In this document: piece after piece, positions 3,518 through 39,771 of the stretch
Layout of the letters: each line of letters opens with the position of its first letter
Numbering within the stretch: position 1 is the first letter of the stretch
DNA from: Candidatus Poriferisocius aerobius
GTDB taxonomy: Bacteria > Actinomycetota > Acidimicrobiia > Acidimicrobiales > Bin134
Length of the DNA stretch: 39,771 nucleotides
NCBI GenBank assembly: GCA_028278955.1
Contig: JAPYOC010000051.1
Span: 1-39,771 of the forward strand
Direction of reading: 5' to 3'
Notes under the pieces: generated by a model
What the model was told of the DNA's origin: nothing
What the model saw: only the letters and a program-made list of their open reading frames with translations
The model's database searches: none
Program-made: the position numbers and the translations under genes

Positions 3518-4134
3518 CGGCGCAGCCTCAACTGCTCTTCTCGGGCCAAGGGGAACAGCGCGGCCACGGTGACGCCCATGCCGATGATCTGAGCTGCCAC
3601 CAGCGGCTCGTCCACCACGAGCCACGCCACCACTGCGGTCAGCACAGGCTGGAGCAGGTGCACGTTGCTCACAACATGCAGCTTTACATACGCAACGCTG
3701 TAATTGGTGAGGACGTGGCCGATTCCGGGCAATGCGGTCATCAGCGCCACATGTGGCCAGTCCGACGCCACCGGCAGCGGCATCAGCGTGCCTTCCGCCA
3801 CCGCCGCCGCAGGCAAGAGCACTGCCCCGGCCACGATGGTCATGGCGGTGCTGTAGGTGAGGGCGTCGTGCCTGTTTCGGGCGTTCCGGCTCAAGACCAG
3901 CAAGCAGGTGCCGGCCAGCATGCCCAGCAGGGCCAACATGTCGCCGAAGAGGGAGTTGCCGCTGTTCTCGCCCGCGCCGACCACCATGATGGACACACCG
4001 CCTATGGCGAGACAGGTCCACACCAAGGAGGTGATGCGGATCTTCTCGCCGAAAAGCGGGCCGACAACCAGCTCCGACTTGGCGCCAGCGGTCTGATTCA
4101 CAGCGGTCCACTGGCAGTGGAGTCGAACGGGCAT
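3514..4134 (-). pseudogene. EamA/DMT-family transporter, 5'-truncated
   Basis: The frame encodes the end of a first EamA repeat (PLFGEKIRITSLVW, then a hydrophobic segment with GGVSIMVVG) and a complete second repeat of about five membrane segments ending in VVDEPLVAAQIIGMGV. EamA transporters normally have ten segments in about 290 aa; here only about 206 aa remain from the ATG at 4134, and the first three to four segments are absent. No remnant is readable upstream, because the amidohydrolase gene and its regulatory site begin there. No convincing ribosome binding site precedes the ATG at 4134, so I call it a truncated remnant, though a short half-transporter cannot be excluded. Its TGA overlaps the start of the CoA-transferase gene. 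The native substrate is unknown (the family exports metabolites and amino acids). Confidence 0.65.
4107..4121. repeat. Perfect 15-bp palindrome at the transporter truncation point
   Basis: Arms TCCACTG and CAGTGGA flank one central G. The palindrome lies close to where homology of the transporter remnant to its family stops, and 22 bases before the TATAC-N3-GTATA site. It could be an operator for another regulator, a recombination scar, or chance. I did not notice another copy in the window. Confidence 0.5.
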
Positions 4135-4143
4135 TGCGACTAG

Positions 4144-4156
4144 TATACTTTGTATA
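4144..4156. promoter_or_regulatory. Operator-like palindrome A (TATAC-TTT-GTATA)
   Basis: Perfect 5-3-5 inverted repeat located 27 bases before the amidohydrolase ATG and about 10 bases before the putative transporter start, so it sits between divergent units. The stretch TATACT also reads as a -10-like hexamer, so a bound repressor would block the promoter. It is one of seven matches to TNTAC-N3-GTANA in this window. Confidence 0.7.
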
Positions 4157-4183
4157 GCAGCAACCAGCTTCGTGGAGGCCACC

Positions 4184-5521
4184 ATGACAACCGCACCTGC
4201 GCCCCCCGGATTGGACTATCCGATCAACGACGCCGACAACCACTTCAACGAGCCCCCGGACTGCTTTGAGCGCTACATCGACCCGAAGCACCGAGATTTG
4301 GCCATACGGCTGGTGACCGGACCGGGTGGGGAGCGCGTCGAGCTGTTCGCCGGGGCGCCCTCCAAGTTCAACACCAACCAGATCACCTTCTCGAAGGAAG
4401 AGCTGCGCGAGATGCTCGGGCAGGCGCCGGAAGTCGAGGCGGCGAGCTCGCAGCCGGCGGTGAGCGGGGATGAGGACGGCGCGGGCATCCTCCCCGGAAT
4501 GCTCCTGAACCGGCTCAATCCCCTGAAGGGCCTCTCCGAGGAAGAGCGCAGGGAGTTCATGGACGAGTTCAAGAACAAGTCCGAGGCCTATGGCAACCGC
4601 GATCTGCGCCTTGCGCTGATGGATGAGCAGGGCATCGACAAGGCGGTCATGTTCCCCGCCGCCGCCCACAACATCGAATACGAGTTCGCCGACAACATTC
4701 CGGCGCTGTACGCCAACGTCAGAGCCTTCAATCGTTGGATGCGCAACGAGCCCGGTTTCAACGCGATGAACCGCATGTTCTTGCCGCCCTACATACCCCT
4801 GGCCGACCCCGAGTTGGCGGTGCGGGAGCTCGAGACCGTCCTCGAGGAGGGTGCCATGATGATCCAGACCAAGTCGGGGCATGCCCACGGCGGTGCCGAC
4901 AACCCCTTCGGCGGGCGCTCAGTGGCCGACCCGGTGTACGACCGGTTCTGGTCCATCGCCAACGAAGCCGGCATCCGCTACGCGGTTCATTTGGGTGGCA
5001 CCGACTATCAGAAGTACGGGGCCGACTGGTCGTACAACGCCGATACCACCTTCGGCGACTTTGACGCCTTTCAATGGGTCATGTACTGGGGAGACCGGCC
5101 GGCAGCCGAATTGACCGCTGCGTTGGTGCTTCACAATTTCTTCGGCCGCTTCCCCAACATCAAGGTGCTCTTGGCGGAACAGGGGACGGTGTGGCTTCCC
5201 TACACCCTCCGCAAAATGGACCATGCCTTCATGATGGGCCGCAAGGTCCGCTGGCATGAGACGGGCCGGCTGGACGCCCGGCCGTCGGAGGTCTTCAAGC
5301 AGCACTTCTACGTGGCACCGTTCCCAGAGGAGAACGTCGGGCGTGTTGCGGCCGAGATCGGCGTCGAGTCGCTGGTGTTCGGCTCCGACTTCCCCCACGG
5401 CGAGGGTCTCGCCCGACCGGCTGAGTATGCGGGCTCGCAACTCTCAGGCTTCAGTGACGAAGACGTCCGCCGGATCATGCGAGACAACATGGAGGACTAC
5501 ATCGCTCCCTGCCTGGCCTGA
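4184..5521 (+). CDS. Amidohydrolase family 2 (ACMSD-like TIM barrel) protein
   Basis: This 445-aa protein belongs to the amidohydrolase-2 (PF04909-type) metal-dependent hydrolase/decarboxylase group. Candidate metal or catalytic residues: D18 and H20 in DADNH near the N-terminus, H269 (YAVHLGG), H317 (LHNFFGRFPNIKVLL) and D402 (VFGSDFPHGEG). The usual HxH is replaced by DNH, as in its paralogue at 18956. The ATG at 4184 is chosen because GGAGG (4174-4178) lies five bases upstream; a GTG at 4172 overlaps that site and is less likely. It heads an operon with crotonase and ACAD genes, the next ATG overlapping its TGA. In that context it may hydrolyse or decarboxylate a CoA-bound or free acid intermediate; the reaction cannot be read from sequence. 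Confidence 0.88.
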   Translation: MTTAPAPPGLDYPINDADNHFNEPPDCFERYIDPKHRDLAIRLVTGPGGERVELFAGAPSKFNTNQITFSKEELREMLGQAPEVEAASSQPAVSGDEDGAGILPGMLLNRLNPLKGLSEEERREFMDEFKNKSEAYGNRDLRLALMDEQGIDKAVMFPAAAHNIEYEFADNIPALYANVRAFNRWMRNEPGFNAMNRMFLPPYIPLADPELAVRELETVLEEGAMMIQTKSGHAHGGADNPFGGRSVADPVYDRFWSIANEAGIRYAVHLGGTDYQKYGADWSYNADTTFGDFDAFQWVMYWGDRPAAELTAALVLHNFFGRFPNIKVLLAEQGTVWLPYTLRKMDHAFMMGRKVRWHETGRLDARPSEVFKQHFYVAPFPEENVGRVAAEIGVESLVFGSDFPHGEGLARPAEYAGSQLSGFSDEDVRRIMRDNMEDYIAPCLA

Positions 5522-7484: not shown

Positions 7485-8737
7485 GCGGCGCCAGCGGTAC
7501 CGAGGCGCTGAGCGAGTTCCGCCGTCGCTGCCAGAACTGGATTGCCGCCAATCTTCCGCCCAAAAGCGCCCCAGCCGAGGACCCCGTGGCGCTGCAGCGC
7601 CTCCTGTTCGACAGCGGTTACGCCGGGATCCCCTTTCCCGAGGAATACGGCGGTGCGGGCCTGACCCTAGAGCACCAGCAGGCGTTCTACGACCTGGCCC
7701 ATGAGCTGGGCCGCCAGGTTCCATCCGGGGTAGCGCTCATGGTCTCGGTGGGGATGCTCGGACCGACCATCCTCGAACACGGCTCCCACGAGGTGAAATC
7801 CCGGTTCTTGCCCGGGCTGTTGAGAGGAGACGACCTCTGGATACAGCTGCTCTCCGAGCCCCGGGGCGGCTCGGACATGGCCGGGGCGCGGACCAGGCTC
7901 GTCCGCGACGGCGACAGCTATGTGCTCACCGGATCGAAGATGTGGAGCACCGGGGCCCATCAATCCGACTACGGGCTCTGCCTGGCCCGCACCGACTGGG
8001 AGGCGCCCAAGCACCGGGGGCTTTCGATGATCGCGGTGCCCTTGGCGCCCACCACGCCGGGGCTCGTTGTGCAGCAGACCCGCTCGGCCGATGGCACGAT
8101 GGGGGAGTTCTGCGAGGAGTTCTTCGATGACATCGTTCTCCCCTCCGAGAACCTCATCGGGGAGGAGAACATCGGATGGGCCGTTGCCCAGACCCTTTTG
8201 TTCCACGAGCGCAACGCGGTGGCCAATGTCGGCTACGGCTACATCGGGTGGGACCAGTCTGAAAGCCCTGCGGGCGCCTACGAGCCGGGACGGGTCTCCG
8301 ATCTCATCGGGATCGCCCGACAGCGCGGCGTCGACCAGAACTCGTCGGTACGACAGCTCATCGCCGACGTGTTCATCGAAGAGGCCGTCTTGCCGCTGAG
8401 CAGCGCCCGGGTGATGACTGGCATGGCGCTGGGAACCCATGAGGGCCAATGGGGCTCGCTGTTGAAGCTCCAAGAGTCTGAGGCCGCCATCGAAAGGGTG
8501 CGGGCCGCGCTGGCCGCTTGTGGCGCCGAAGGCGTCATCTGGGAGGGCGACGACATAGAGCTGGACAATCCGGGTACGAGTTGGCTCCTCGCGCGCGGGG
8601 GCACCCTGGCCGGCGGGAGCAGCGAGATGCAGCGCAACATCATCAGCGAGCGGTTGTTGGGACTTCCCCGCGAGCCGTCAGTTGAGCGGGGTCTCTCCTT
8701 CAACGAGGTGCTGAGGCGCCAAGAGTCGTTTGAGTAG
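7481..8737 (+). CDS. Acyl-CoA dehydrogenase, large-subunit type (pair 1)
   Basis: This 418-aa ACAD has YGGAGLTLEHQ in the N-terminal domain, LLSEPRGGSDMAG and LTGSKMWSTGAH for FAD/substrate contact in the middle domain, and AGGSSEMQRNIISERLLGLP near the C-terminus. The residue aligned with the catalytic Glu of medium-chain ACAD (in YEGTSQIQR) is Gly, so the base must come from another position, as in isovaleryl-CoA-dehydrogenase-like and ChsE-type subunits. Its ATG overlaps the TGA of the small subunit (ATGA), which supports a stoichiometric two-subunit enzyme. The gene ends head-on against ACAD pair 2. Confidence 0.92.
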   Translation: MSGASGTEALSEFRRRCQNWIAANLPPKSAPAEDPVALQRLLFDSGYAGIPFPEEYGGAGLTLEHQQAFYDLAHELGRQVPSGVALMVSVGMLGPTILEHGSHEVKSRFLPGLLRGDDLWIQLLSEPRGGSDMAGARTRLVRDGDSYVLTGSKMWSTGAHQSDYGLCLARTDWEAPKHRGLSMIAVPLAPTTPGLVVQQTRSADGTMGEFCEEFFDDIVLPSENLIGEENIGWAVAQTLLFHERNAVANVGYGYIGWDQSESPAGAYEPGRVSDLIGIARQRGVDQNSSVRQLIADVFIEEAVLPLSSARVMTGMALGTHEGQWGSLLKLQESEAAIERVRAALAACGAEGVIWEGDDIELDNPGTSWLLARGGTLAGGSSEMQRNIISERLLGLPREPSVERGLSFNEVLRRQESFE

Positions 8738-11050: not shown

Positions 11051-11069
11051 GCGTCTTCCCAGAGTTTGG

Positions 11070-11082
11070 TATACCTAGTATA
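11070..11082. promoter_or_regulatory. Operator-like palindrome B (TATAC-CTA-GTATA)
   Basis: Perfect 5-3-5 inverted repeat in the divergent gap, 19 bases before the ACAD ATG (minus strand) and 74 bases before the importer lipoprotein ATG (plus strand). It has the same arm sequence and spacing as sites A and G. One site could control both operons. Confidence 0.72.
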
Positions 11083-11156
11083 GTAAATCGTGTCCACGAA
11101 GACGGACAAAAAGCGCCGTTGGCTAGCCTGACGGCCGCCCCAAATGAGGAGAGACC

Positions 11157-18852: not shown

Positions 18853-18896
18853 GCACTTCCGCCGTCGGTCGGCAGTGGCGATGCGTTCAGTTTTGG

Positions 18897-18909
18897 TGTA
18901 CGCTGTATA
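18897..18909. promoter_or_regulatory. Operator-like palindrome C (TGTAC-GCT-GTATA)
   Basis: Palindrome with one arm mismatch, 46 bases before the second amidohydrolase start. TATAGC within it is -10-like. Same core TAC-N3-GTA as the other sites. Confidence 0.62.
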
Positions 18910-18955
18910 GCTAGGAGGGGCCGAGGCTTCGGCGCCTGAAGCTAGGAGGATGCAG

Positions 18956-20562: not shown

Positions 20563-20634
20563 GGAGTGCTCCTCGTGGCGCCCGGTCGGCCCGCCCGGCT
20601 CTCCAGGCTGTTTTGGCGACCCAAGCAAGTAAAC

Positions 20635-20647
20635 TTTACATCGTATA
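20635..20647. promoter_or_regulatory. Operator-like palindrome D (TTTAC-ATC-GTATA) overlapping a TATAAT
   Basis: Palindrome in the divergent gap between the Rieske ferredoxin (72 bases away) and the SDR (36 bases away). A perfect TATAAT (20644-20649) on the plus strand overlaps its right arm, placing the site over the probable -10 of the SDR promoter. No good -35 hexamer is visible. Confidence 0.68.
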
Positions 20648-20683
20648 ATAAACCCGGGCTCGTCAAAGCGGAGAGAGGTCGCG

Positions 20684-26213: not shown

Positions 26214-26396
26214 TGGCGGCCTCCTTTCGGATCCCGTCATCCTACTTTTCTCCTAACGTTGGTGTCACCCCTGTCGGCCCCGAAGATGGGCTTCTCGACT
26301 GCCGGCGCTCGAGTAATCTAGTATCCGTGTCGTTCAAGGGAAGCTGGCGTTGGAGGCACCGAGGAGCACTTGTTCGCCGAGTAGGGGAAGGGGGCC

Positions 26397-30478: not shown

Positions 30479-30512
30479 GTAATTGCTCTCTTTCTTGTTC
30501 CGCGGCTTTTGC

Positions 30513-30525
30513 TGTACACAGTAAA
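30513..30525. promoter_or_regulatory. Operator-like palindrome E (TGTAC-ACA-GTAAA)
   Basis: Palindrome placed almost exactly midway between the divergent SDR start (34 bases) and the cupin start (35 bases). The core TAC-N3-GTA is intact; the outer positions vary. Its central position suggests control of both genes. Confidence 0.6.
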
Positions 30526-30560
30526 GTCGAGACAGCTCCAGCTATTTCTTGGAGGTGCCT

Positions 30561-30956
30561 ATGCGCTGCGTGATAACTGCTAACGACGAACAGGGGCGGT
30601 CCTTCGTCGCTCGGGAGATCGAGGTCGGGAGCGGGCTCACCGATGTGTTCGCGCACGACGACGTCGCCTCCTTGGCGCCGTTGGGCGAAGTTGTGGACTG
30701 GGGAGACGAGATGCCGGCACCGGGCGGGGTCCGCTGGCTGTTCAACCGGGTGGCGCCCGGGCAGCGCTGGGAGATGCACGCCACTCCCACCATCGATCTG
30801 GATGTGGTCATCGAAGGCGAGGCGGATCTCATCCTCGACAGCGGCACCGTGAAGCTCGGTGCCGGAGATGGCGCACTGGTGACCGGACGCCATGGCATCC
30901 AAGGTGGCCCCGAGGGCTGTCTGATGGCGATCGTGCTGCTCGGGATCGGCGGCTGA
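30561..30956 (+). CDS. Small cupin-domain protein
   Basis: This 131-aa single-cupin protein shows motif 1 around PGQRWEMHATPTIDLDVVIEGEADL (H and E positions conserved) and motif 2 around GDGALVTGRHGIQG. Such proteins are small metal-binding isomerases, dioxygenases or sensors. ATG 30561 is set by GGAGG (30551-30555) five bases upstream; a TTG at 30549 overlaps that site and is rejected. It shares operator E with the SDR, so it is probably part of the pathway; the reaction is unknown. Confidence 0.82.
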   Translation: MRCVITANDEQGRSFVAREIEVGSGLTDVFAHDDVASLAPLGEVVDWGDEMPAPGGVRWLFNRVAPGQRWEMHATPTIDLDVVIEGEADLILDSGTVKLGAGDGALVTGRHGIQGGPEGCLMAIVLLGIGG

Positions 30957-31003
30957 GCGGGCCGGCAAACCCTCGCTGCGGTCCCCGCTTGGCGTCCGTC
31001 GCG

Positions 31004-32257
31004 CTACCACACGCATCCCGGCGTGTCGACGGCATAGGCCGTCTTCAGCGGCGACGGCTCGACATCGGTTGCCGGGATCGCAACCGGGCCGCGCCGACGC
31101 GAGGGCAGAAGAACTTTAGCCCGGCCCGGCGCGGTGACCTCCCCCCGCTGGTTTTCGCACCAGATCTCCAACTCCACCAGATTGCGCTCCCCCTCCTGGC
31201 GCTTGTCGGCGACTTTGGCGTTCACCCAGGTCGTGTCGCCGTGGAAGTTGAACACCCGGACCTCGTCGGCCAGTTCCCAGACGAAGCCGTCGTCGCCCAC
31301 CCAGTTGGTGAGATAGTGCATCATCCACGAGGTGCGCATGAACGCGTAATCGTAGGCCCGGGGATTGCCGACCTCCTTGGCCCGGTCGTCGTCCCAGTGC
31401 ACCCGCATTGTTGAAGACCAGGCCCCGTCTTTGGTCTTGCTGTAGAAGGAGGGGATGCGCTTTCGGTTCAGGTAGTCGAGGCGGTTGACACCGTTGCGGA
31501 ACATGCCCCAGCCCATCCCCATGTGCCAGGCGATCATGTCCTGCACCTGCAGCGGCCCCTTGACCATCGAGGGCATCTCCATGCCGGGCTCGACGTCTTC
31601 CCAGTAGAGCGTGTCGGAACCCCGGCGAAACTCGTTCTCGTAGGCCCCGTCGATTCGAGTGAGATAATCCTCGTCGTAGAAGGGCGGCTCATAGGTCTTG
31701 GTGTTCTTGCTCGCCTTCTCCGACGCCTCCCGCTCGACGTAGAAGAAATGGAAGCGGCGGATCGCAATCATTTCGTTGCGCTGGTTGACGTACTCCTTGC
31801 GGTGGCGAACGATCAATGCCCTGCCGCCGCCGAACTCGCTTTTGGTTTCCTCAACGTCTTCGACGAAGTGGTTCAGATGGACGAGGTCGCCCGGTCGGAT
31901 GGGCCGAATCAGCTCGTAGCTGCCGCCCGCTAGGTAGTTGGGCACACCGCGCAGTGCTCCAGACCCGGCGGCGCGAACCTCTTTGGGCACCGGCGGAGTC
32001 CCGGTGTTGTCGAGCGAGAGGAGGTACATCGGAGGGGCGACAACCCCTCCCCATCGCGTGGTTTTGGCGTAGTCCTCGTCGCAGAAGATCGGATTGTCGT
32101 CACCGTAGGAGTGGGCGAAATGGCGGATCGTGTCCTTGTGCGGCTCCTGGTTGAACGGAGCGCCCTCTTTGATCAAAACCCCGATCCTCTTGCGGTATCT
32201 CTCGATCCCGTCTGCCGTTATCTTCCCGGTCACCTCGGCGTCCCCCTGCTTGGCCAT
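31004..32257 (-). CDS. MaoC/FAS1-like double hot-dog dehydratase
   Basis: This 417-aa protein has two hot-dog domains. The N-terminal one (about 15-180) carries HSYGDDNPIFCDEDYA and WGGVVAPPMYL, the FAS1-like dehydratase form in which the MaoC His is replaced by an aromatic residue. The C-terminal one (about 215-400) contains GPLQVQDMIAWHMGMGWG and a FNFHGDTTWVNAKV stretch. The family hydrates or dehydrates enoyl-CoA thioesters, often of bulky acyl chains. AGGAGGAGG-type sequence sits just before ATG 32257. It is the third gene of the TetR-ligase-dehydratase operon, 22 bases after the ligase stop. It probably adds water to an ACAD product. Confidence 0.9.
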   Translation of the reverse strand: MAKQGDAEVTGKITADGIERYRKRIGVLIKEGAPFNQEPHKDTIRHFAHSYGDDNPIFCDEDYAKTTRWGGVVAPPMYLLSLDNTGTPPVPKEVRAAGSGALRGVPNYLAGGSYELIRPIRPGDLVHLNHFVEDVEETKSEFGGGRALIVRHRKEYVNQRNEMIAIRRFHFFYVEREASEKASKNTKTYEPPFYDEDYLTRIDGAYENEFRRGSDTLYWEDVEPGMEMPSMVKGPLQVQDMIAWHMGMGWGMFRNGVNRLDYLNRKRIPSFYSKTKDGAWSSTMRVHWDDDRAKEVGNPRAYDYAFMRTSWMMHYLTNWVGDDGFVWELADEVRVFNFHGDTTWVNAKVADKRQEGERNLVELEIWCENQRGEVTAPGRAKVLLPSRRRGPVAIPATDVEPSPLKTAYAVDTPGCVW

Positions 32258-32279
32258 GGCCTCCTCCTCTGGCCGCGGG

Positions 32280-33845
32280 TCAGATCCGCCGGCCGGAGTC
32301 GGCCCAGTAGCGGTCGCGGATCTCGCGTTTGAGCACCTTGCCGGTGTCGCTGCGGGGCAGTTCACCCACGAAGTCGACCGAGCGGGGGCACTTGGACGGC
32401 GCGAGCTTCTCCCGGCACAGGGCGATCAGCTCGTTCTCCAGGGAGTCCATCTCCGCCGCGGTGGCGGGGGCAACGACCGGCTCCACCACCGCCTTCACCT
32501 GTTCTCCCCACTCGTCGTCGGGGATGCCGACGACGGCCGTGTCGGCCACTGCGGGATGGGTGGCGAGGACGTTCTCGATCTCCGAGGGGTAGACGTTGAC
32601 GCCCCCGCTGATGATCATGTCCTTCTTCCGGTCGGCGAGGAACAGGTAGCCGTCTTCGTCCAGGTAGCCCAGATCTCCGATGGTGAAAGCGGTGTCCTGG
32701 AAGACCTCGTCGGTTTGGGCCGGATCGCCGGTGTACCGGAAGAGCCGCTCGCCGGTGTCGATGAACACCTCGCCGACCTCGCCCGGAGGCAGCAGACCGC
32801 CGTTGTCGTCGCGGATGGTCACGGTCACGCCCCGCACACTGCGCCCGACCGTCCCCGGCTTCTCGAGCCAGCGGTAGGGCTTGGCGATCGTTGCCGCGCC
32901 TTCGGTGCCGCCGTAGGTCTCCCAGAGCACGGGTCCCCACCAGTCCATCATGCGGTGTTTGACCGACGGAGGGCACGGTGCAGCGCCGTGGACCACGACT
33001 TCGAGGCTTGAAACGTCATAGGCGGCTCGGGTGGCCTCGGGGAGCTTGAGCAACCGGTGGAACATGACGGGCACGGCGTAGACGGTGGTGACGCGGTGCT
33101 CCTGGATCGCCTTGAGCATTTTCTCAGCGTCGAACCTCGGGTGGATCACAACGGCCTGTCCCATATTGAGCGCCGCCATGTAGAACACGCGGCTGCCGCC
33201 ATGGAACATCCCGGCCGTCATCAAGAGACTGCCCCGCAGCGGCGAGAGCGAGAAGGCCCTGCCGGTGAGCGCGGCCTCGTGGGCCAGCTCTGAGGGGTCC
33301 CCTTCCCGCAGTCGCCGTTTGATGCCCTTCGCACGGCCGGTCGTGCCGGAGGAGAACGCGAAGAACGCCCCCGGGCTCCGTTCTTCGGGTATGGTGGCCG
33401 GGTGGGGCTCAAGGAACGCGTCAACCGACGTGATTCCGGGAACCTCCCCGACCGAGACGAGCGCGCGCAGCCCTTGGCACCGGGCGATGCCGCTCAGCGC
33501 CTCGGCGTTTGAGGCGTCGAAGACGAGCGCTGACGCCTCGGAAGCCTCCAATACCGCCTCGATCTCATCTGACGATGAGCGTGGGTTGATCATCGTCAGA
33601 TGGAGCCCGCTCTGCTCGCACGCGAGCAACCACTCCACAAGCTGGCAGTCGTTGGGCAGCAAGGCGGCAACGGCTCCACCGCGCTCGAGGCCGGCGCCGC
33701 GCAGCGCATGCACGATCCGGTGGGCCTGCTCGGCCAGCTCGCCGAACGAGCGGGGGCCCGAGGGGGAGGCAAGGATGGCCGGCAGCTCCGGATGGTCCTC
33801 GGCGATCCACCAGAATCCCAGCCGCTGTGGCCCCGGATCGGTCAC
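32280..33845 (-). CDS. Acyl-CoA ligase (AMP-dependent synthetase), copy 1
   Basis: This 521-aa adenylate-forming enzyme has the phosphate-binding loop SSGTTGRAKG (the usual Pro before KG is Ala), YGGTEGA, IGDLGYLDEDGYLFLADRKK and the C-terminal catalytic K503 in SDTGKVLKREIR. It activates a carboxylic acid to acyl-CoA through acyl-AMP. The GTG start at 33845 overlaps the TetR stop (GTGA), so regulator and ligase are translationally coupled. The CoA ester made here may be the regulator's ligand, as is common for TetR proteins in catabolic clusters; that is inference. Confidence 0.93.
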   Translation of the reverse strand: MTDPGPQRLGFWWIAEDHPELPAILASPSGPRSFGELAEQAHRIVHALRGAGLERGGAVAALLPNDCQLVEWLLACEQSGLHLTMINPRSSSDEIEAVLEASEASALVFDASNAEALSGIARCQGLRALVSVGEVPGITSVDAFLEPHPATIPEERSPGAFFAFSSGTTGRAKGIKRRLREGDPSELAHEAALTGRAFSLSPLRGSLLMTAGMFHGGSRVFYMAALNMGQAVVIHPRFDAEKMLKAIQEHRVTTVYAVPVMFHRLLKLPEATRAAYDVSSLEVVVHGAAPCPPSVKHRMMDWWGPVLWETYGGTEGAATIAKPYRWLEKPGTVGRSVRGVTVTIRDDNGGLLPPGEVGEVFIDTGERLFRYTGDPAQTDEVFQDTAFTIGDLGYLDEDGYLFLADRKKDMIISGGVNVYPSEIENVLATHPAVADTAVVGIPDDEWGEQVKAVVEPVVAPATAAEMDSLENELIALCREKLAPSKCPRSVDFVGELPRSDTGKVLKREIRDRYWADSGRRI

Positions 33846-34450
33846 TTGCCGCTCTCGTGCTGGGCGCGGTCGAGCATCGCCTGGAGTCCGGCGATGACGG
33901 TCTCCACCCCGAAGGCCAAATGCTTCTTGGCCGAGATATCGCTGAGCCCCATGGCCCGCGCTGCCTCCCGGTCCAGGTTCGCGTCGACACTGAGGCGACC
34001 GTGGACGTAGGTGATTGCACATGGCCAGGCGAGTCGGGCTAGGCGGGGCGGGAAACCGGCGCGCTCCAAGAACTCGATCCCGCCGTGGTAGACGTCAGGC
34101 GACATCCCGAGATCAGGCAGCGCGATCAGGTGTTCGTCCAAACCCCGATACGCCCGCAGCGTGGTCCACAGTGACGTCAAAAAGCTGTTCAGGGCCTCCT
34201 CCCACGTCGTGTCGCCTAGATCACTCGGGAGGTCGGACTGCTCGGCGATGACTGCCGCGGCGAGCAGTCCGAGGAGATCGTCTTTGTTCTTCACGTGGTA
34301 GTAGAGCGCCATGGGCGTGACCTCGAGCTCTGCCGCCACCGATCGCATGGTGACGGCATCGACCCCCTGGTCGCGTGCGAGCCGCAGGGCGACCTCCACG
34401 ATCTCATGGCGCGACAGGGGAGAACTCCGGCGGCTTGGGGCGACAGCCAT
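33842..34450 (-). CDS. TetR-family transcriptional regulator
   Basis: This 202-aa protein has an N-terminal TetR helix-turn-helix (LSRHEIVEVALRLARDQG, then TMRSVAAELEVTPMALYYHV and KNKDDLLGLL) and a helical ligand/dimerisation domain. It is the only DNA-binding regulator I find in the window. ATG 34450 gives a normal family N-terminus; a GTG at 34459 is possible. Palindrome F lies 86 bases upstream, so it may repress its own operon (TetR, ligase, MaoC dehydratase). I propose that it binds the recurrent TNTAC-N3-GTANA sites; the pairing is inferred from location only. Confidence 0.92.
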   Translation of the reverse strand: MAVAPSRRSSPLSRHEIVEVALRLARDQGVDAVTMRSVAAELEVTPMALYYHVKNKDDLLGLLAAAVIAEQSDLPSDLGDTTWEEALNSFLTSLWTTLRAYRGLDEHLIALPDLGMSPDVYHGGIEFLERAGFPPRLARLAWPCAITYVHGRLSVDANLDREAARAMGLSDISAKKHLAFGVETVIAGLQAMLDRAQHESGK

Positions 34451-34536
34451 GGCGCTCACGGTAGCGTCAGTCGCAGGGCGGGCGGCGCAGTGGCCGCCGC
34501 GCAGTTGGCATCGAAGCAACCGAGCATTGGCTTGAC

Positions 34537-34549
34537 TCTACACTGTACA
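34537..34549. promoter_or_regulatory. Operator-like palindrome F (TCTAC-ACT-GTACA) before tetR
   Basis: Palindrome 86 bases upstream of the TetR start, in the 143-base gap after the second ligase gene. The core TAC-N3-GTA is intact. It would place the regulator's own operon under the same control as the catabolic units. Confidence 0.58.
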
Positions 34550-34557
34550 GCGAACAG

Positions 34558-34570
34558 GCCCGCCACGGGC
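34558..34570 (-). terminator. Hairpin after the second acyl-CoA ligase gene
   Basis: GCCCG-CCA-CGGGC lies 23 bases beyond the ligase stop (minus strand), with an alternative GGGC-AGC-GCCC (34567-34577) next to it. It could terminate the ligase transcript just before the tetR promoter region. Confidence 0.4.
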
Positions 34571-34593
34571 AGCGCCCTGAGAGCAGGCCCGCT

Positions 34594-36237
34594 TCAGAGC
34601 TGCTGGCGCAACTCGACCTTTTTGATCTTGCCCGATGCCGTGCGGGGGAAGTCCGCCACCGCCACCACCTTTTCCGGAGTCTTCTGCTTGGCCGCCCCGA
34701 GCTGGGCAAAGTGATCGGCGAGCGCGGCAACGGTGGGCGCTTGCGCTCCCTCGGCCGGCCTCACGAAAATGCAGACCCGCTCTCCATACCGCGGGTCTTC
34801 CATGCCGACCGCGGCGGCCTCTGCGACGGACGGATGGCGTCGGACGAGGTCTTCGATCTCGAGGGAGGAGAGGTTCTCGCCGCCCCGGATGATGATGTCC
34901 TTTATCCGGTCAGTGATCGTGAGGTTGCCCTGGTGGTCGAATACGCCGACGTCGCCGGTGCGGAACCAGCCGCCGGGCGCGAAGGCCGCTGCGTTGAGCG
35001 CCGGATCGGTGTAGCCAACGAACTGGTCGGGTCCGATCGTCCAGATCTCCCCCTCTTCGCCGGGTTCCAGATCGCGCCCGTCCCCGTCGACAATGCGCAG
35101 TCGGGTTCCCTCATAGATCTGGCCATCGGTCCTCGACCGCTGGCCGAGCGGGGTTGAGCGAAGGCCCATGCTGACCGACGGGTGCTCAGAGGATCCGTAG
35201 GTGCGCCGCATGGTCCATCCCAGTTTTTCTGAGCGCTCGACCAGCGAGGGCGGCACACCGGCGGCGCCACAGGTGGCCTCTACCACCGTGGCGAGTCTCG
35301 GGTCGCCGGCTTCGTGCAGATCCATCAGGGCGCCGACGTGGAACGGGGTGCCGTTCACCAGGGTGACTTGGTGGGCTTGGATCTGGTCCGCAGCCGCGTC
35401 TGGATCCCAGCGGTCGAGCAAAACGTTCCGCAGGCCCGCGACGACTGGGTTGAGGAGCATGATCAACCCGGCGATATGGCCGGCGGGGAAGGGGTGGAGC
35501 GCAACCATGCTCTTGTCGCAGACCGGGGGAGCGAAGATGTCGCGCACCTCGGTGATAAAGGTTTCGTGGGTGTGGATAACCCCTTTGGGGTCTGAGGTGG
35601 TTCCCGACGTGTAGACCACCAACAAGGGGTCGCCAGCGTCGAGCGCCGCGGGCTCGAAGGCCGGCTCGGCTCGGGCCCGGCCCTCGAGTTCGCTCCAGGC
35701 CACTGTCTGGGGTGGAGCGTCATCTCCCACGATGATGACATCGAGGTTTGCGGTCGCCGGCATATCGTGCAGGCGGCCCGCGAAATCGAGGTTTCCCCAA
35801 CGGTCGGGGCACATGTACAGGCGCGCCCCCGATGCCTGGAGGATCCAGTCGGTCTCACGAGGCCCATACGTATGCACAATCGGGACGAACACCACGCCCA
35901 GCGTCGCCAGCGCCAGGTAGGCAACGGCCGTCTCGCGCCAGTTGGGAAGCTGAACCGCGACGACGTCGCCATGCCGGAGCCCCGTGGCGGCCAGGGCGCT
36001 GGCCATGGTGAGCGAATCGCGCTGAAGCTCCTCAAGGGTGAAGACCGAGGGACGCTCCATTGAGTGCAGCACGAGCTGAAGGTCGGGGGTGCGCCGGGCC
36101 GAGTCCGCCAAAGCCTCCGGCAGCGTTCGACCGTCGTACCGGCCCGTGCTGCGCCAGTGCTGGCGCAGACGCCGTCGAGCGTCTCGGATCCCCTCGTCGG
36201 CAAAGAGCGCATCGGGATTGAATGGGTGATCTAGCAT
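34594..36237 (-). CDS. Acyl-CoA ligase (AMP-dependent synthetase), copy 2
   Basis: This 547-aa adenylate-forming enzyme has YTSGTTSDPKGVIHTHE as phosphate-binding loop, TYGSSEHPS in the A5 region, GWFRTGDVGVFDHQGNLTITDRIKD and catalytic K537 in TASGKIKKVELRQQL. By eye it is only distantly similar to the other ligase, so the two may act on different acids. ATG 36237 follows GGAGGAG; the open frame upstream is discarded. A degenerate palindrome lies 84 bases upstream. The gene appears monocistronic. Confidence 0.93.
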   Translation of the reverse strand: MLDHPFNPDALFADEGIRDARRRLRQHWRSTGRYDGRTLPEALADSARRTPDLQLVLHSMERPSVFTLEELQRDSLTMASALAATGLRHGDVVAVQLPNWRETAVAYLALATLGVVFVPIVHTYGPRETDWILQASGARLYMCPDRWGNLDFAGRLHDMPATANLDVIIVGDDAPPQTVAWSELEGRARAEPAFEPAALDAGDPLLVVYTSGTTSDPKGVIHTHETFITEVRDIFAPPVCDKSMVALHPFPAGHIAGLIMLLNPVVAGLRNVLLDRWDPDAAADQIQAHQVTLVNGTPFHVGALMDLHEAGDPRLATVVEATCGAAGVPPSLVERSEKLGWTMRRTYGSSEHPSVSMGLRSTPLGQRSRTDGQIYEGTRLRIVDGDGRDLEPGEEGEIWTIGPDQFVGYTDPALNAAAFAPGGWFRTGDVGVFDHQGNLTITDRIKDIIIRGGENLSSLEIEDLVRRHPSVAEAAAVGMEDPRYGERVCIFVRPAEGAQAPTVAALADHFAQLGAAKQKTPEKVVAVADFPRTASGKIKKVELRQQL

Positions 36238-36321
36238 TGGACTCCTCCGGGCAGGTTCGCCGTCGCCGCCCCTGAGACGAAGACGAGTCCGAGATCTCGG
36301 CGTGCGCTCACTTGGCCGCAG

Positions 36322-36334
36322 TTTACGCCGCAAA
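36322..36334. promoter_or_regulatory. Degenerate operator-like palindrome H (TTTAC-GCC-GCAAA)
   Basis: It matches TNTAC-N3-GTANA at all but one defined position (C for T in the right arm). It lies in the 265-base divergent gap (36238-36502), 84 bases before the ligase and 168 before the WS/DGAT start. Nothing else in that gap is recognisable. Confidence 0.35.
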
Positions 36335-36502
36335 GTAGGTTGATCTGATGGACATATCAAGCCACTGCTGGCTTGAGAGCCCCTCTGTTTGTCGGCCGGG
36401 CTTGCCGCCCTACCCTGTAGGAGTGTCCCGCCGTTGCTGGCTCTGGTCCGCCGTCGTTCGGCCGCGGTTTTGGGGGCCGCACTCTCTGGGAAGGCCGACG
36501 GC

Positions 36503-37870
36503 GTGATCCGACTCCGACCCGACGACGACTACATGCTCGCGGTCCACCACCCGACGACGCCGGCGCAGATCGGAGCGCTGCTCACGTTCGAAAGTGCCGG
36601 CGCCCCCGCGGAGCAGTTCGCCGATGCTGCGAGGTGCCACCTCGCCGGGCGCCTGCCGCTCACGCCGCTGCTGCGGCTTCGGCGTTCGGCGCCGGCTCAT
36701 ATCGATTGCGACGCCTGGTTCGAGCTGGCCGATATCGACGTCGACCGCGTGATCACCGTTGCGGGCCAAGACGACGAGTTCAGCGACGATGGGCTCCACG
36801 ACCGCACCGCGCAATGGGCGATGGAGCAGCTCGACCCCGAGGGTCCTCCGTTCCACTTCATTGTGGTGCCGCGTGTGGCGGGTGGGCGAAGTGCGGTGTA
36901 TCTGCGAACCCTGCACGCGCTCGCCGACGGCGTCGGCTTCCAGTCGATTGTCCGCGATCTGACCGACGGCGAAGGCGATGCCCCTCCACAGGGCCCTCGC
37001 CGGGGCCGCGACGAGCGCATCCCCGGCCGGGTCGAATGGCTGGTGCGCTCAGGTCTCGCCCTGCTGGGCGACTCATGGCGGGCGCGGTCGACCCGGGCCG
37101 AGCAGGCCCACGCCCGCGAGGCTCTCGCCGCGTTCAAGGCCGATCCGGCGAAAAAGCGGGCGCGAACACCCAAGCTGGAGATGGGCGGGCCAAACTCGAC
37201 GAGCCGATCGTTCGCCACGCTGACCGTTTCGCTCGACCGCTTGCAGCGCCTCGGCACGGCGCTGCAAGCCACGGTGAACGATGTCTTCCTCCTCGTCGGG
37301 TCGGGTGCGGTTCGAGGCTTCCTGTCGGAGATCGGCGATCTTCCCGACGAGCCGATCGTGGCGAACGCGGCGCGGAGTTATCGGCGTCCAGAGCACGGCG
37401 AGATCGGCAACCGGATCATCTCGCTCCACCCCCACCTGGCAACCCATCTCGATGATCCGCTGGCCCGCTTGGAGGCAATCCAGACGTCGATGGCAGCCGA
37501 AATCGAACGGAGCCGGCTCCAAGAAGCGACCATGGACCAGAGCGCCACCTTCTTCTCGGCCCGCAAGATTCGGAAGCTGGCCGCCTCACGGGTGCGCGAC
37601 GGTGGCATGATGACGCCGGGGAACGTGACCCTGTCAAACGTGCCCGGCCCCGCGGCCCCGCGGTTTCTGGCCGGCTATCGGATGGTCGGAAACTATCCCA
37701 CGCCGATCGTCGGCTCGGGCCGCTTCCTCAACGTGACCATGCGCCGGTACTGCGACGGCCTCGACATGGGCATCATGACCGACGCCGAGAAGGTGGCAGA
37801 CGCCCGCCTGATACGCCGGCACATTGAGAGCGCCCTCGAGCAGCTCGAACAATTGGTCGCCGCCCGGTGA
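36503..37870 (+). CDS. WS/DGAT-type acyltransferase (wax ester synthase/diacylglycerol acyltransferase)
   Basis: This protein of about 455 aa fits the bacterial WS/DGAT length. The active-site motif is LHALADG (H138, D142): the second, catalytic His of HHxxxDG is kept and the first is Leu. The C-terminal NVTLSNVPGP matches the family. GTG 36503 is preferred because it gives a family-like start (MIRLRPDDDYMLAVHH) and GGGAAGG lies eight bases upstream; a TTG at 36389 also opens the frame. It would esterify an acyl-CoA to an alcohol or diacylglycerol, storing excess carbon or acylating a hydroxylated substrate. Confidence 0.85.
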   Translation: MIRLRPDDDYMLAVHHPTTPAQIGALLTFESAGAPAEQFADAARCHLAGRLPLTPLLRLRRSAPAHIDCDAWFELADIDVDRVITVAGQDDEFSDDGLHDRTAQWAMEQLDPEGPPFHFIVVPRVAGGRSAVYLRTLHALADGVGFQSIVRDLTDGEGDAPPQGPRRGRDERIPGRVEWLVRSGLALLGDSWRARSTRAEQAHAREALAAFKADPAKKRARTPKLEMGGPNSTSRSFATLTVSLDRLQRLGTALQATVNDVFLLVGSGAVRGFLSEIGDLPDEPIVANAARSYRRPEHGEIGNRIISLHPHLATHLDDPLARLEAIQTSMAAEIERSRLQEATMDQSATFFSARKIRKLAASRVRDGGMMTPGNVTLSNVPGPAAPRFLAGYRMVGNYPTPIVGSGRFLNVTMRRYCDGLDMGIMTDAEKVADARLIRRHIESALEQLEQLVAAR

Positions 37871-37956: not shown

Positions 37957-38784
37957 TTAGCGGTTGGCCGGCGCCTGGCGCCCCACGACGTCTTTCTCCC
38001 ACCCGTCGGCGCGCCGAACAAAGGCGTTGATCTTGTCGGCGACTGCCTCGGTTCGCGGCACGAGGTCGGCAATGAAGTCGATTTCGGCGGGGTAGATGTC
38101 GGGCTCGCCTGCGAGTATCCCTTTGACTGAGAAGCGGGCGAATCGGTCGATGGCCTCGGCGCCGAACTGCTCCTTGCCCGGGAGGCTCATGTCGGGGGCC
38201 AGCCCGGTGTCGAGAAGGGGCGGGTAGATCTCCACGACCGTCACCGGGGTTTCGGCAAGCTGTCGGCGAAGCCCCATGGTGAACATGTGGAATCCTGCCT
38301 TGGACGCGGAATAGAGCGGGTTAGGCTCGAGCGGGAACAGCGCCCCGGGCGTGCCAATGTTGGCGATGGTGGCAGAGCGCTCCTCCCAGCCCTGCTCGCG
38401 GCGCATCCACAAGAAGCGGCGGGTGAGCTCCACCGGCGCGGCGAAGTTGGTCTCGATCTCGGCGCGGGCCAGATTCTGCGAGAGGGTGGTGTCGTTGGTG
38501 TAGTCGCAGGCGAAGCTGACCCCGGCGTTGTTCACCAGCAGGTCCAACGGCTTTCCGGTACGCAAGACCTCGGTGCAAAGCCGATCGAGGTCGGCGGTAT
38601 CGGTGATATCGGCTTGCGTCACCCGCAGCGCCGGTACATCGGCTCGGGCGGCCTCAAGCCGCGCCGGTGTCCGCCCGCAGGCGAGCACGTCGTAGCCGGC
38701 GGCTAGGAGGTGGCGCGACAACGCCAGGCCGAGTCCATAGGTTCCGCCGGTGACCAAGGCGAGCTGCCGGTCGGATTCGCTCAT
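37957..38784 (-). CDS. Short-chain dehydrogenase/reductase, classical
   Basis: This 275-aa SDR has TGGTYGLGLALS (cofactor), ACGRTPARLE, ADITD, NNAGVSF and the catalytic Y158/K162 in YSASK. The usual catalytic Ser region reads NIGTPGA, so the Ser appears to be Thr or Gly. By its segments (for example EIYPPLLDTGL) it resembles the DltE/YbbO-like SDR group. ATG 38784 follows GGAG by six bases. Perfect palindrome G lies 44 bases upstream, which ties this gene to the proposed regulon. Confidence 0.92.
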   Translation of the reverse strand: MSESDRQLALVTGGTYGLGLALSRHLLAAGYDVLACGRTPARLEAARADVPALRVTQADITDTADLDRLCTEVLRTGKPLDLLVNNAGVSFACDYTNDTTLSQNLARAEIETNFAAPVELTRRFLWMRREQGWEERSATIANIGTPGALFPLEPNPLYSASKAGFHMFTMGLRRQLAETPVTVVEIYPPLLDTGLAPDMSLPGKEQFGAEAIDRFARFSVKGILAGEPDIYPAEIDFIADLVPRTEAVADKINAFVRRADGWEKDVVGRQAPANR

Positions 38785-38828
38785 CGCCTGCTCCTTTCGG
38801 GTCGCGGTGCTCGATGCAGCACCGCTGT

Positions 38829-38841
38829 TATACACAGTATA
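38829..38841. promoter_or_regulatory. Operator-like palindrome G (TATAC-ACA-GTATA)
   Basis: Perfect 5-3-5 inverted repeat 44 bases upstream of the SDR start (minus strand). On the minus strand TATACT reads as a -10-like hexamer; on the plus strand TATAAT (38838-38843) overlaps it but leads to no gene. Confidence 0.7.
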
Positions 38842-38876
38842 ATAAAGGGGTGGGGCCGTGGCCCTGCCCAGCAGCA

Positions 38877-38915
38877 GGAAACCCCAGCGGGAAACCCCAT
38901 CAGTGGGAAACCCCA
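38877..38915. repeat. Three copies of GGAAACCCCA
   Basis: The 10-mer GGAAACCCCA occurs at 38877-38886, 38890-38899 and 38906-38915, with start-to-start spacing of 13 and 16 bases, in the gap between the acyltransferase stop and palindrome G. No reading frame on either strand explains it. It could be a protein-binding cluster or a small expansion. Confidence 0.7.
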
Positions 38916-38928
38916 GCGGCGGGACATC

Positions 38929-39771
38929 TCAGGGCCAGCGGCGGTGCTGGCGACGGGATCGGGGGGAGCGGTCGCCGAGGGCCCAGGCCCGCCGCCAGGG
39001 GGAGACCGCGGGGCCACCGAGGCCGGGGGTGGTTCCGGCGTGGGCCCGGCGCCGGGCCTGGTACCAGTCGGTGGCGCACTCGTCGGCCAGGGCGGCCACC
39101 GCCACCTCGACGCGGGCCGCAAACCGCCGGGCGTTGTCCTGCTCGGCAGGCACGAGGGGATCGCCGAAGGCCACGGTGGTGGCCGACACCCTGGGCATGA
39201 TGCGGCCCTTGGGCAGAATCCGGTCGGTGCCTTCCACATGCACCGGCACCACCGGCACGCCGCAGCGCACGGCTAGATAGCCGGCCCCGCCGAGGAAGGG
39301 CTGGCCCCAGCCGTCGGGACTGCGGCCGCCCTCGGGGAAGATGAGCAGGCTCCAGCGGTCCTCGATGAGCGATGCGGCCAGCCGGGCCGAGCGCCGTCCC
39401 ACTTTGGAGCGCTCGATGGGGATGGCCCCGATGAACAGGGCCGAGGCGGCCGACCTGAGCGCCCCGGTGAAGAAATAGTCGGACGCGGCCCCCACGACCA
39501 GCCGGTTGCGCCACCGGGGCGGTATGGAGGTGAACAGCAGGGGGGTGTCGATGTGGCTGTGGTGGTTGGCGGCGAAGATGACCGGCCCCTCGAGGTGCTC
39601 TATCCGGTCGAGGCCCCGGCGCTGGGGGCGGGCCACCCCAGCCATGGCCGGCTGCATCACGACTTCGGCGATCACCCGCCGGGCCGCTTGAGCCGCGGGC
39701 TTGCGAGCCCAGTCGGTGTCGTAGTCGGCCCCCTGCTTCTTGGCGGTGGGCGCAGGCGGCACCCCGAGGGG
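38929..39771 (-). CDS. PlsC-type 1-acylglycerol-phosphate acyltransferase, possibly running off the right edge
   Basis: At least 277 aa. The acyltransferase motifs are NHHSHIDTP (catalytic HX4D), IPIERSKVGRRS and FPEGGRSPDGWG (acceptor binding), then VPVVPVHVEGTD. It would acylate lysophosphatidate or a related acceptor at the membrane. A GTG at 39762 could be the start, but the frame remains open to the edge and no ribosome binding site can be checked, so I mark it to the end as possibly incomplete. It is read in the same direction as the SDR; the repeat cluster and operator G between them suggest separate transcription. Confidence 0.85.
   Translation of the reverse strand, partial: PLGVPPAPTAKKQGADYDTDWARKPAAQAARRVIAEVVMQPAMAGVARPQRRGLDRIEHLEGPVIFAANHHSHIDTPLLFTSIPPRWRNRLVVGAASDYFFTGALRSAASALFIGAIPIERSKVGRRSARLAASLIEDRWSLLIFPEGGRSPDGWGQPFLGGAGYLAVRCGVPVVPVHVEGTDRILPKGRIMPRVSATTVAFGDPLVPAEQDNARRFAARVEVAVAALADECATDWYQARRRAHAGTTPGLGGPAVSPWRRAWALGDRSPRSRRQHRRWP

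Follow-up and report, generated by a model that had tools for sequence, protein, structure and literature searches.

The TetR/AcrR-family regulator P0001 is probably an autoregulated repressor of an entire catabolic gene cluster, of the KstR2 type, that has an operator of its own and is released by a metabolite of the pathway. The first-pass annotation had limited regulation to a loop between the tetR gene and the acyl-CoA ligase gene that overlaps it; a palindrome that recurs in the window, i.e. in the whole stretch of 39,771 nucleotides that was analysed, points instead to a regulator of the whole cluster. In the circuit that we propose, P0001 would be a homodimeric TetR-family repressor, local to a large cluster of CoA-thioester-based catabolism, and would bind at about eight places before cluster genes to a palindrome of 13-15 bp (TNTACNNNGTANA, often as part of CTNTACNNNGTANAG). 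It would also repress its own operon, and a pathway metabolite, presumably an intermediate, would release it so that the whole cluster is induced together.

As judged by Pfam and NCBIfam matches, the cluster encodes a CoA-transferase III, two amidohydrolases, two enoyl-CoA hydratases, six acyl-CoA dehydrogenases, branched-chain-type ABC transporter proteins, four SDRs, an F420-type monooxygenase, a Rieske protein and an aldehyde dehydrogenase; a P450, a WS/DGAT and a PlsC-type acyltransferase are among its other products. P0001 is the only PF00440 match on the window contig (five such matches were found in the window's own genome, G000, and six in G001, another genome of the genus). Pfam scans of 48 window ORFs (of 156 ORFs of at least 100 aa) revealed no other HTH family, nor did the Pfam scans of window ORFs reveal a drug efflux pump family, and the Rfam scan of the window gave no match at gathering cut-offs. 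The genes around tetR follow one another on the minus strand in the order ligase 1, tetR, ligase 2, MaoC-like hydratase:

34594..36237, minus strand: acyl-CoA ligase 1 (PF00501 and PF13193), upstream gene, same probable operon
33842..34450, minus strand: tetR (P0001, 202 aa), TetR/AcrR-family regulator (PF00440 at 7.7e-11; relatives in G001, 77%, and in G351, 54%)
32280..33845, minus strand: acyl-CoA ligase 2 (PF00501 and PF13193), whose GTG start overlaps the tetR stop by GTGA
31004..32257, minus strand: MaoC-like double hot-dog hydratase (PF13452 at 2.8e-17), next gene downstream of ligase 2

P0001 contains a single PF00440 domain (TetR_N), whose HTH scores 42 bits against a Pfam cut-off of 24 and thus places the protein in the TetR/AcrR family. 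A GTG at 34459 is also in frame, but its counterpart in G001 is not, so the start of tetR was set at the ATG at 34450. Direct reading of the sequence confirms the overlap described in the first-pass annotation: GTGA is common to the tetR stop and to the ligase 2 start (GTG at 33845, minus strand), and the same overlap is kept in G001. The next gene upstream, ligase 1, has the same orientation and is separated from tetR by 143 nt in the window and by 29 nt in G001, therefore the transcription unit may begin further up than had been thought. The proposal that tetR and the ligase are made together holds in part: the overlap would couple both genes, and regulator and ligase 2 would come from one message in this lineage, but the ligase neighbour is not conserved in G004 and G351. 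This feature follows from gene position and would not belong to the core of the circuit. In the streptomycete data given in PMC3511530, 55 of 372 TetR genes of three species are probably co-transcribed with a neighbour, so the arrangement is an ordinary one, and the ligase coupling of tetR is best read as specific to a lineage.

The palindrome TNTACNNNGTANA occurs seven times as an exact copy in the window (at 4144, 11070, 18897, 20635, 30513, 34537 and 38829), whereas 300 first-order Markov simulations gave 0.02 copies on average and never more than one. One of these copies belongs to the palindrome that the first-pass annotation had placed upstream of tetR (palindrome F, 34536-34550), which is thus present and, as a member of the motif, lies beyond chance. 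The other six candidate operators are the following (given without strand):

4143..4157: GTATACTTTGTATAG, core 27 nt before the ATG of amidohydrolase 1 (4184), which is followed by an enoyl-CoA hydratase gene; aligns with a site in G001
11069..11083: GTATACCTAGTATAG, between an acyl-CoA dehydrogenase gene (minus strand) and ABC transporter genes (plus strand); identical in G001
18896..18910: GTGTACGCTGTATAG, upstream of the second amidohydrolase; identical in G001
20634..20648: CTTTACATCGTATAA, between the Rieske protein gene (minus strand) and an SDR gene (plus strand); core kept in G001
30512..30526: CTGTACACAGTAAAG, between SDR (minus strand) and cupin (plus strand) genes; core kept in G001
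38828..38842: TTATACACAGTATAA, exact motif upstream of an SDR gene (minus strand, start 38784); beyond the G001 contig

All seven copies are intergenic in our gene list, by which 91.6% of the window is coding and in which some starts were set by us and the CoA-transferase gene was ended at 3700, its frame being open past 4143. The cores of the six sites listed above lie about 20-47 bp from the nearest start, where the ATG of amidohydrolase 1 is taken at 4184 (vs 4192 in the gene list) and the SDR start at 38784 was set by eye, on a stretch that resembles a ribosome site. The concentration of the motif in the cluster is evident from the whole 2.48-Mb genome, which contains nine exact copies, seven of them on this 39.8-kb contig; the other two are found on contigs C60 and C97 and are not tied to genes. 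Control arms composed of the same letters gave no window copy in 10 of 11 cases and one copy in the remaining case, and among all 256 possible arms four GC-rich ones reach at least seven copies in the window. The window counts favour the motif, since it was derived from the window itself, so G001 and G351 are the more independent tests. Palindrome F resembles the 30512 site, and both fit the looser form CTNTACNNNGTANAG. With one mismatch allowed, this form is found at 22 places in G000, 26 in G001 and 25 in G004, i.e. less often than its reversed control (41, 55 and 42, respectively), therefore the excess of the motif is local and not genome-wide. A text search of the literature found no match to the motif, which may nevertheless be published. 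Short imperfect repeats around GGGAAACCCCAGCGG are present at about 38868-38930, near the 38828 operator and upstream of the SDR gene.

Among the 21 other genomes of the genus that were searched (E up to 1e-20), G001 is the only one with a relative of P0001 (77% identity). Between them, its contigs C41, C177, C87 and C8 cover almost all of the window at 81-89%. Six sites of the window align with sites in G001, namely five with exact cores and the site at 36321 with its one change. Within these alignments 47 of 48 core bases are kept, compared to 33 of 42 other positions; palindrome F is the exception among the sites compared. G001 contains ten exact copies of the core, of which eight were placed: six on the cluster contigs, one on C11 and one near the end of C185. 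The C11 copy is a perfect site (CTATACATAGTATAG, C11:1430-1444) situated between P450 and acyl-CoA dehydrogenase genes, with a CoA-transferase III gene further on, and is likely to mark a further member of the regulon; no comparable site is listed outside the window in G000. Two further observations were made in the cluster of G001. Upstream of amidohydrolase 1 there are two motif-like sites 14 bp apart (C41:7606-7634) where the window has one, and a protein of 456 aa with two TetR_N stretches, a tandem double TetR, is encoded between the P450 and an acyl-CoA dehydrogenase gene (C8:12198-13568).

In an order-level sample, P0001 finds a match in at least 5 of 397 genomes, the window's own included (E up to 1e-20); others may have been missed, as the order-level searches scored no more than 8 and 3 candidates per genome. 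Nine loci with relatives at 30-43% identity were seen in the genome contigs, seven of which were used for structure alignment. In G351, a member of another family, a TetR protein 54% identical to P0001 is encoded third in an amidohydrolase-hydratase-tetR run with no ligase adjoining. The amidohydrolase has 445 aa as in the window and shares 343 of 444 aligned residues (77%), the hydratase is 72% identical over 235 residues, and a CoA-transferase gene, its product 54% identical to that of the window, is convergent to tetR. An exact CTGTACCCAGTACAG lies 28 nt before the amidohydrolase ATG, vs 27 nt at window 4143, and a one-change site is found about 110 bp beyond the start of the CoA-transferase match. 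The evidence from G351 thus consists of one exact and one one-change site in the 13.8 kb read; an exact copy of the motif occurred in 0.6% of 1000 simulated loci. A stretch which we take to be the recognition helix is nearly identical in P0001 and its relatives in G001 and G351 (VTPMAVYYHV vs VTPMALYYHV), and differs in G204 and G121. At the G204 homologue (41% identity) the 13.2 kb examined contain no exact or one-change core; CCGTACCTTGTACGG, which has the same TAC-N3-GTA centre, lies there in the gap that separates tetR from a divergently oriented monooxygenase gene. The 18 kb around the G121 homologue contain two one-change cores, which are not tied to a promoter.

The genome G004 shows a different situation. 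Ligase 1 (75%) and ligase 2 (80%) adjoin each other without tetR between them, and no PF00440 match was found at E up to 0.01 in this genome of about 2.2 Mb (95% complete). Together with G351, where the TetR gene follows amidohydrolase and hydratase genes, this speaks against the ligase as a conserved partner of tetR. The sites are nevertheless recognisable. Five places were set beside window sites, by position except for the ligase 1 site, which aligns by itself, the counterpart of 11069 being left out. The core is exact at one of them (116 nt before amidohydrolase 1), carries one change at two (at ligase 1 and in a Rieske-SDR gap, counterpart of 20634) and is a two-change remnant at the other two. 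One of these remnants is found at the second amidohydrolase, where by eye one arm of the 18896 site is altered at the same place; the other precedes the cupin gene, where the 30512 site is degraded at the same place. As G004 keeps sites without a TetR_N match, either the loss of the regulator is recent or something else binds them. An exact core at C18:53503 of G004 was rejected as a cluster site and taken as chance, for it lies beyond the cluster and no window protein matched there. At the junction of ligase 1 and ligase 2 in the same genome (C18, about 7900-8080), some 15 bases (AAGCAGATCTCATGA) are directly repeated across the ligase 1 stop. No core with up to one mismatch was found at the weaker ligase-relative loci in G019, G009 and another contig of G000.

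It is necessary to ask whether P0001 is indeed the protein that reads these sites. That the motif is bound by another regulator, with P0001 regulating only itself or something else, seems improbable to us; candidates would be the tandem TetR of G001 and a protein of non-TetR type that G004 has kept. The tandem protein is encoded inside the G001 cluster and would be a rival binder there, and the persistence of sites in G004 agrees with a binder that lacks a TetR_N match. However, the tandem gene is absent at the same place in the window (26275-26314, only about 40 bp), though the operators are present, and Mce3R, a known tandem TetR, is described to bind non-palindromic DNA (PMC11667970), while the sites here are palindromes. 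In addition, a P0001 relative accompanies the motif in the 13.8 kb of G351. We therefore prefer P0001 as the putative binding protein and repressor. A more tentative extension, which is possible but which we would not favour as it stands, is that a TetR(D)/ActR-type repressor was recruited to read a CoA-thioester intermediate and controls about thirty genes, its operators staying in place while the regulator gene moves between operons. The tetR gene might accordingly have come to lie in the amidohydrolase run (G351) or the ligase run (G000, G001), or to be absent (G004). Equally tentatively, the regulator might stay behind one of its own operators wherever it is found with the motif.

The operator by which P0001 would control its own operon deserves separate discussion, as two sites have to be considered for this role. 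Both are given without strand, and the promoter-like block that overlaps one of them is given with its strand:

34536..34550: CTCTACACTGTACAG, palindrome F, which fits the cluster motif exactly; its segment is missing in G001
36321..36335: GTTTACGCCGCAAAG (one core change), probable operator of the ligase 1-tetR-ligase 2 operon; TTTTACGCTGTAAAG in G001, GTGTACGCTGTAAGG in G004
36332..36360, minus strand: promoter-like block of ligase 1 (TTGATA, 17 nt, TACTTT), a conserved non-coding block with hexamers assigned by eye

The first-pass annotation had treated F as the defining operator. This view could not be maintained, because the segment of about 110 bp that carries F is missing in G001, where 29 nt separate ligase 1 from tetR, and the conserved site lies upstream of ligase 1. 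There the -10 hexamer overlaps the palindrome, and the block is recognisable in G001 (TTGATT, TACTTT) and in G004 (TTGATA, TACCTT); it was not listed by the automatic scan, which found no consensus promoter or terminator in 30900-36700. It could be argued that F is a lineage-specific palindrome without function and that the only control of tetR is through the promoter of ligase 1. Apart from the absence of the segment in G001, this would agree with the lack of a good -35/-10 pair seen with F and with its distance from the start codon, the core being 87 bp upstream of the tetR ATG and thus further away than in the other six exact sites. We nevertheless find this explanation unlikely. An exact core in a 143-bp gap is very improbable by chance, given the expectation of 0.02 per 39.8 kb, and the ligase 1 site is about as far from its start as F. 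The ligase 1 site of the window has moreover lost one core base, so F may have taken over autoregulation. With the altered ligase 1 site and F directly upstream of tetR, we infer a turnover of operators that would keep tetR behind one of its own sites. The F segment was also considered as a repeat. Its partial matches in the genome (best 80%, query 18-63, E 1.5e-4) correspond to the GC-rich part and not to the palindrome, and we read them as unrelated; F with its flank is found at 51 places with up to three mismatches, vs 33 for the reversed control, with a single mismatch on contig C196.

As to the ligand, the loop originally proposed, in which the coupled ligase 2 makes the acyl-CoA that takes the repressor off palindrome F, appears doubtful in this narrow form. 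The precedent invoked for it is sound: the sources describe KstR2 as being released by HIP-CoA, the product of the FadD3 ligase of its own regulon (PMC5380842), and MftR by long-chain acyl-CoA, namely oleoyl-CoA (PMC8728441). The GTGA overlap here and in G001 fits the loop, and so does the best NCBIfam profile of P0001, which is MftR2 (NF038211, residues 12-196), but its 92.9 bits are well below the cut-off of 285 and by this measure P0001 is not a member of that family. Against the loop stand the missing ligase neighbour in G351, the ligases without tetR in G004 and the absence of F from G001. Several CoA-esters are candidates, as the cluster has two ligases and a CoA-transferase gene, and TetR(D), ActR and PamR2, which are among the best matches by sequence and fold, were crystallised with tetracyclines or polyketides. 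The structure model of P0001 is of moderate quality (mean pLDDT 73.5); in this model the all-helical ligand domain of the TetR fold is present, and its Foldseek matches are TetR-family chains (E about 1e-6, TM about 0.6, rmsd about 7-8 A). Product sensing by P0001 as such is plausible by analogy with KstR2 and MftR, and we prefer a cluster-wide repressor that would respond to a metabolite of the pathway.

It is instructive to compare this circuit to known systems. By circuit design the closest one appears to be KstR2 of mycobacteria and rhodococci, which is described as a repressor of a local cluster with ligase, acyl-CoA dehydrogenase, SDR and CoA-transferase genes, with palindromes in divergent intergenic regions, its own promoter included, and with the negative autoregulation that we propose here (PMC3068626, PMC5380842). 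The two differ in that no copy of the KstR2 operator AnCAAGnnCTTGnT was found in the window with one mismatch allowed, that there are three sites there vs about eight here, and that no KstR2 profile is among the NCBIfam matches listed for P0001. The KstR profile scores 22.8 bits vs a cut-off of 280. The KstR operator is TnnAACnnGTTnnA, and the window contains no exact copy of it and four at up to one mismatch, so P0001 does not belong to the KstR regulon by this measure. The MftR motif T-N2-GGCA-N5-TGCC-N2-A is likewise absent from the window at up to one mismatch, and the NCBIfam matches listed for 14 window proteins include no mycofactocin family besides the MftR2 match of P0001 itself. QsdR of Rhodococcus erythropolis is similar as a TetR repressor beside an operon with an acyl-CoA ligase gene, but it is reported to sense the lactone ring of the substrate and not acyl-CoA, and qsdR has its own transcription start (PMC6262395). 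TetR(D) and ActR are among the closest solved sequences and folds, but TetR regulates the efflux of tetracycline, and ActR a gene for an MFS transporter (PMC3511530). By its profile score P0001 is not a tetracycline repressor (58.8 bits vs 265 for NF010319), nor, with its one PF00440 stretch, a protein of the Mce3R kind, which has two TetR units per chain.

The neighbour of tetR changes while the amidohydrolase operator stays, so an overlap with a neighbouring gene is weak evidence of a regulator's target. What was a single speculative loop becomes a testable regulon, in which one regulator would act through a defined motif at about eight sites. Further genes of the pathway may be traced by this motif, e.g. 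the P450, dehydrogenase and CoA-transferase genes by the perfect site on C11 of G001. Provided that the repressor responds to a pathway metabolite, its ligand would give a lead to the substrate on which this uncharacterised cluster acts.
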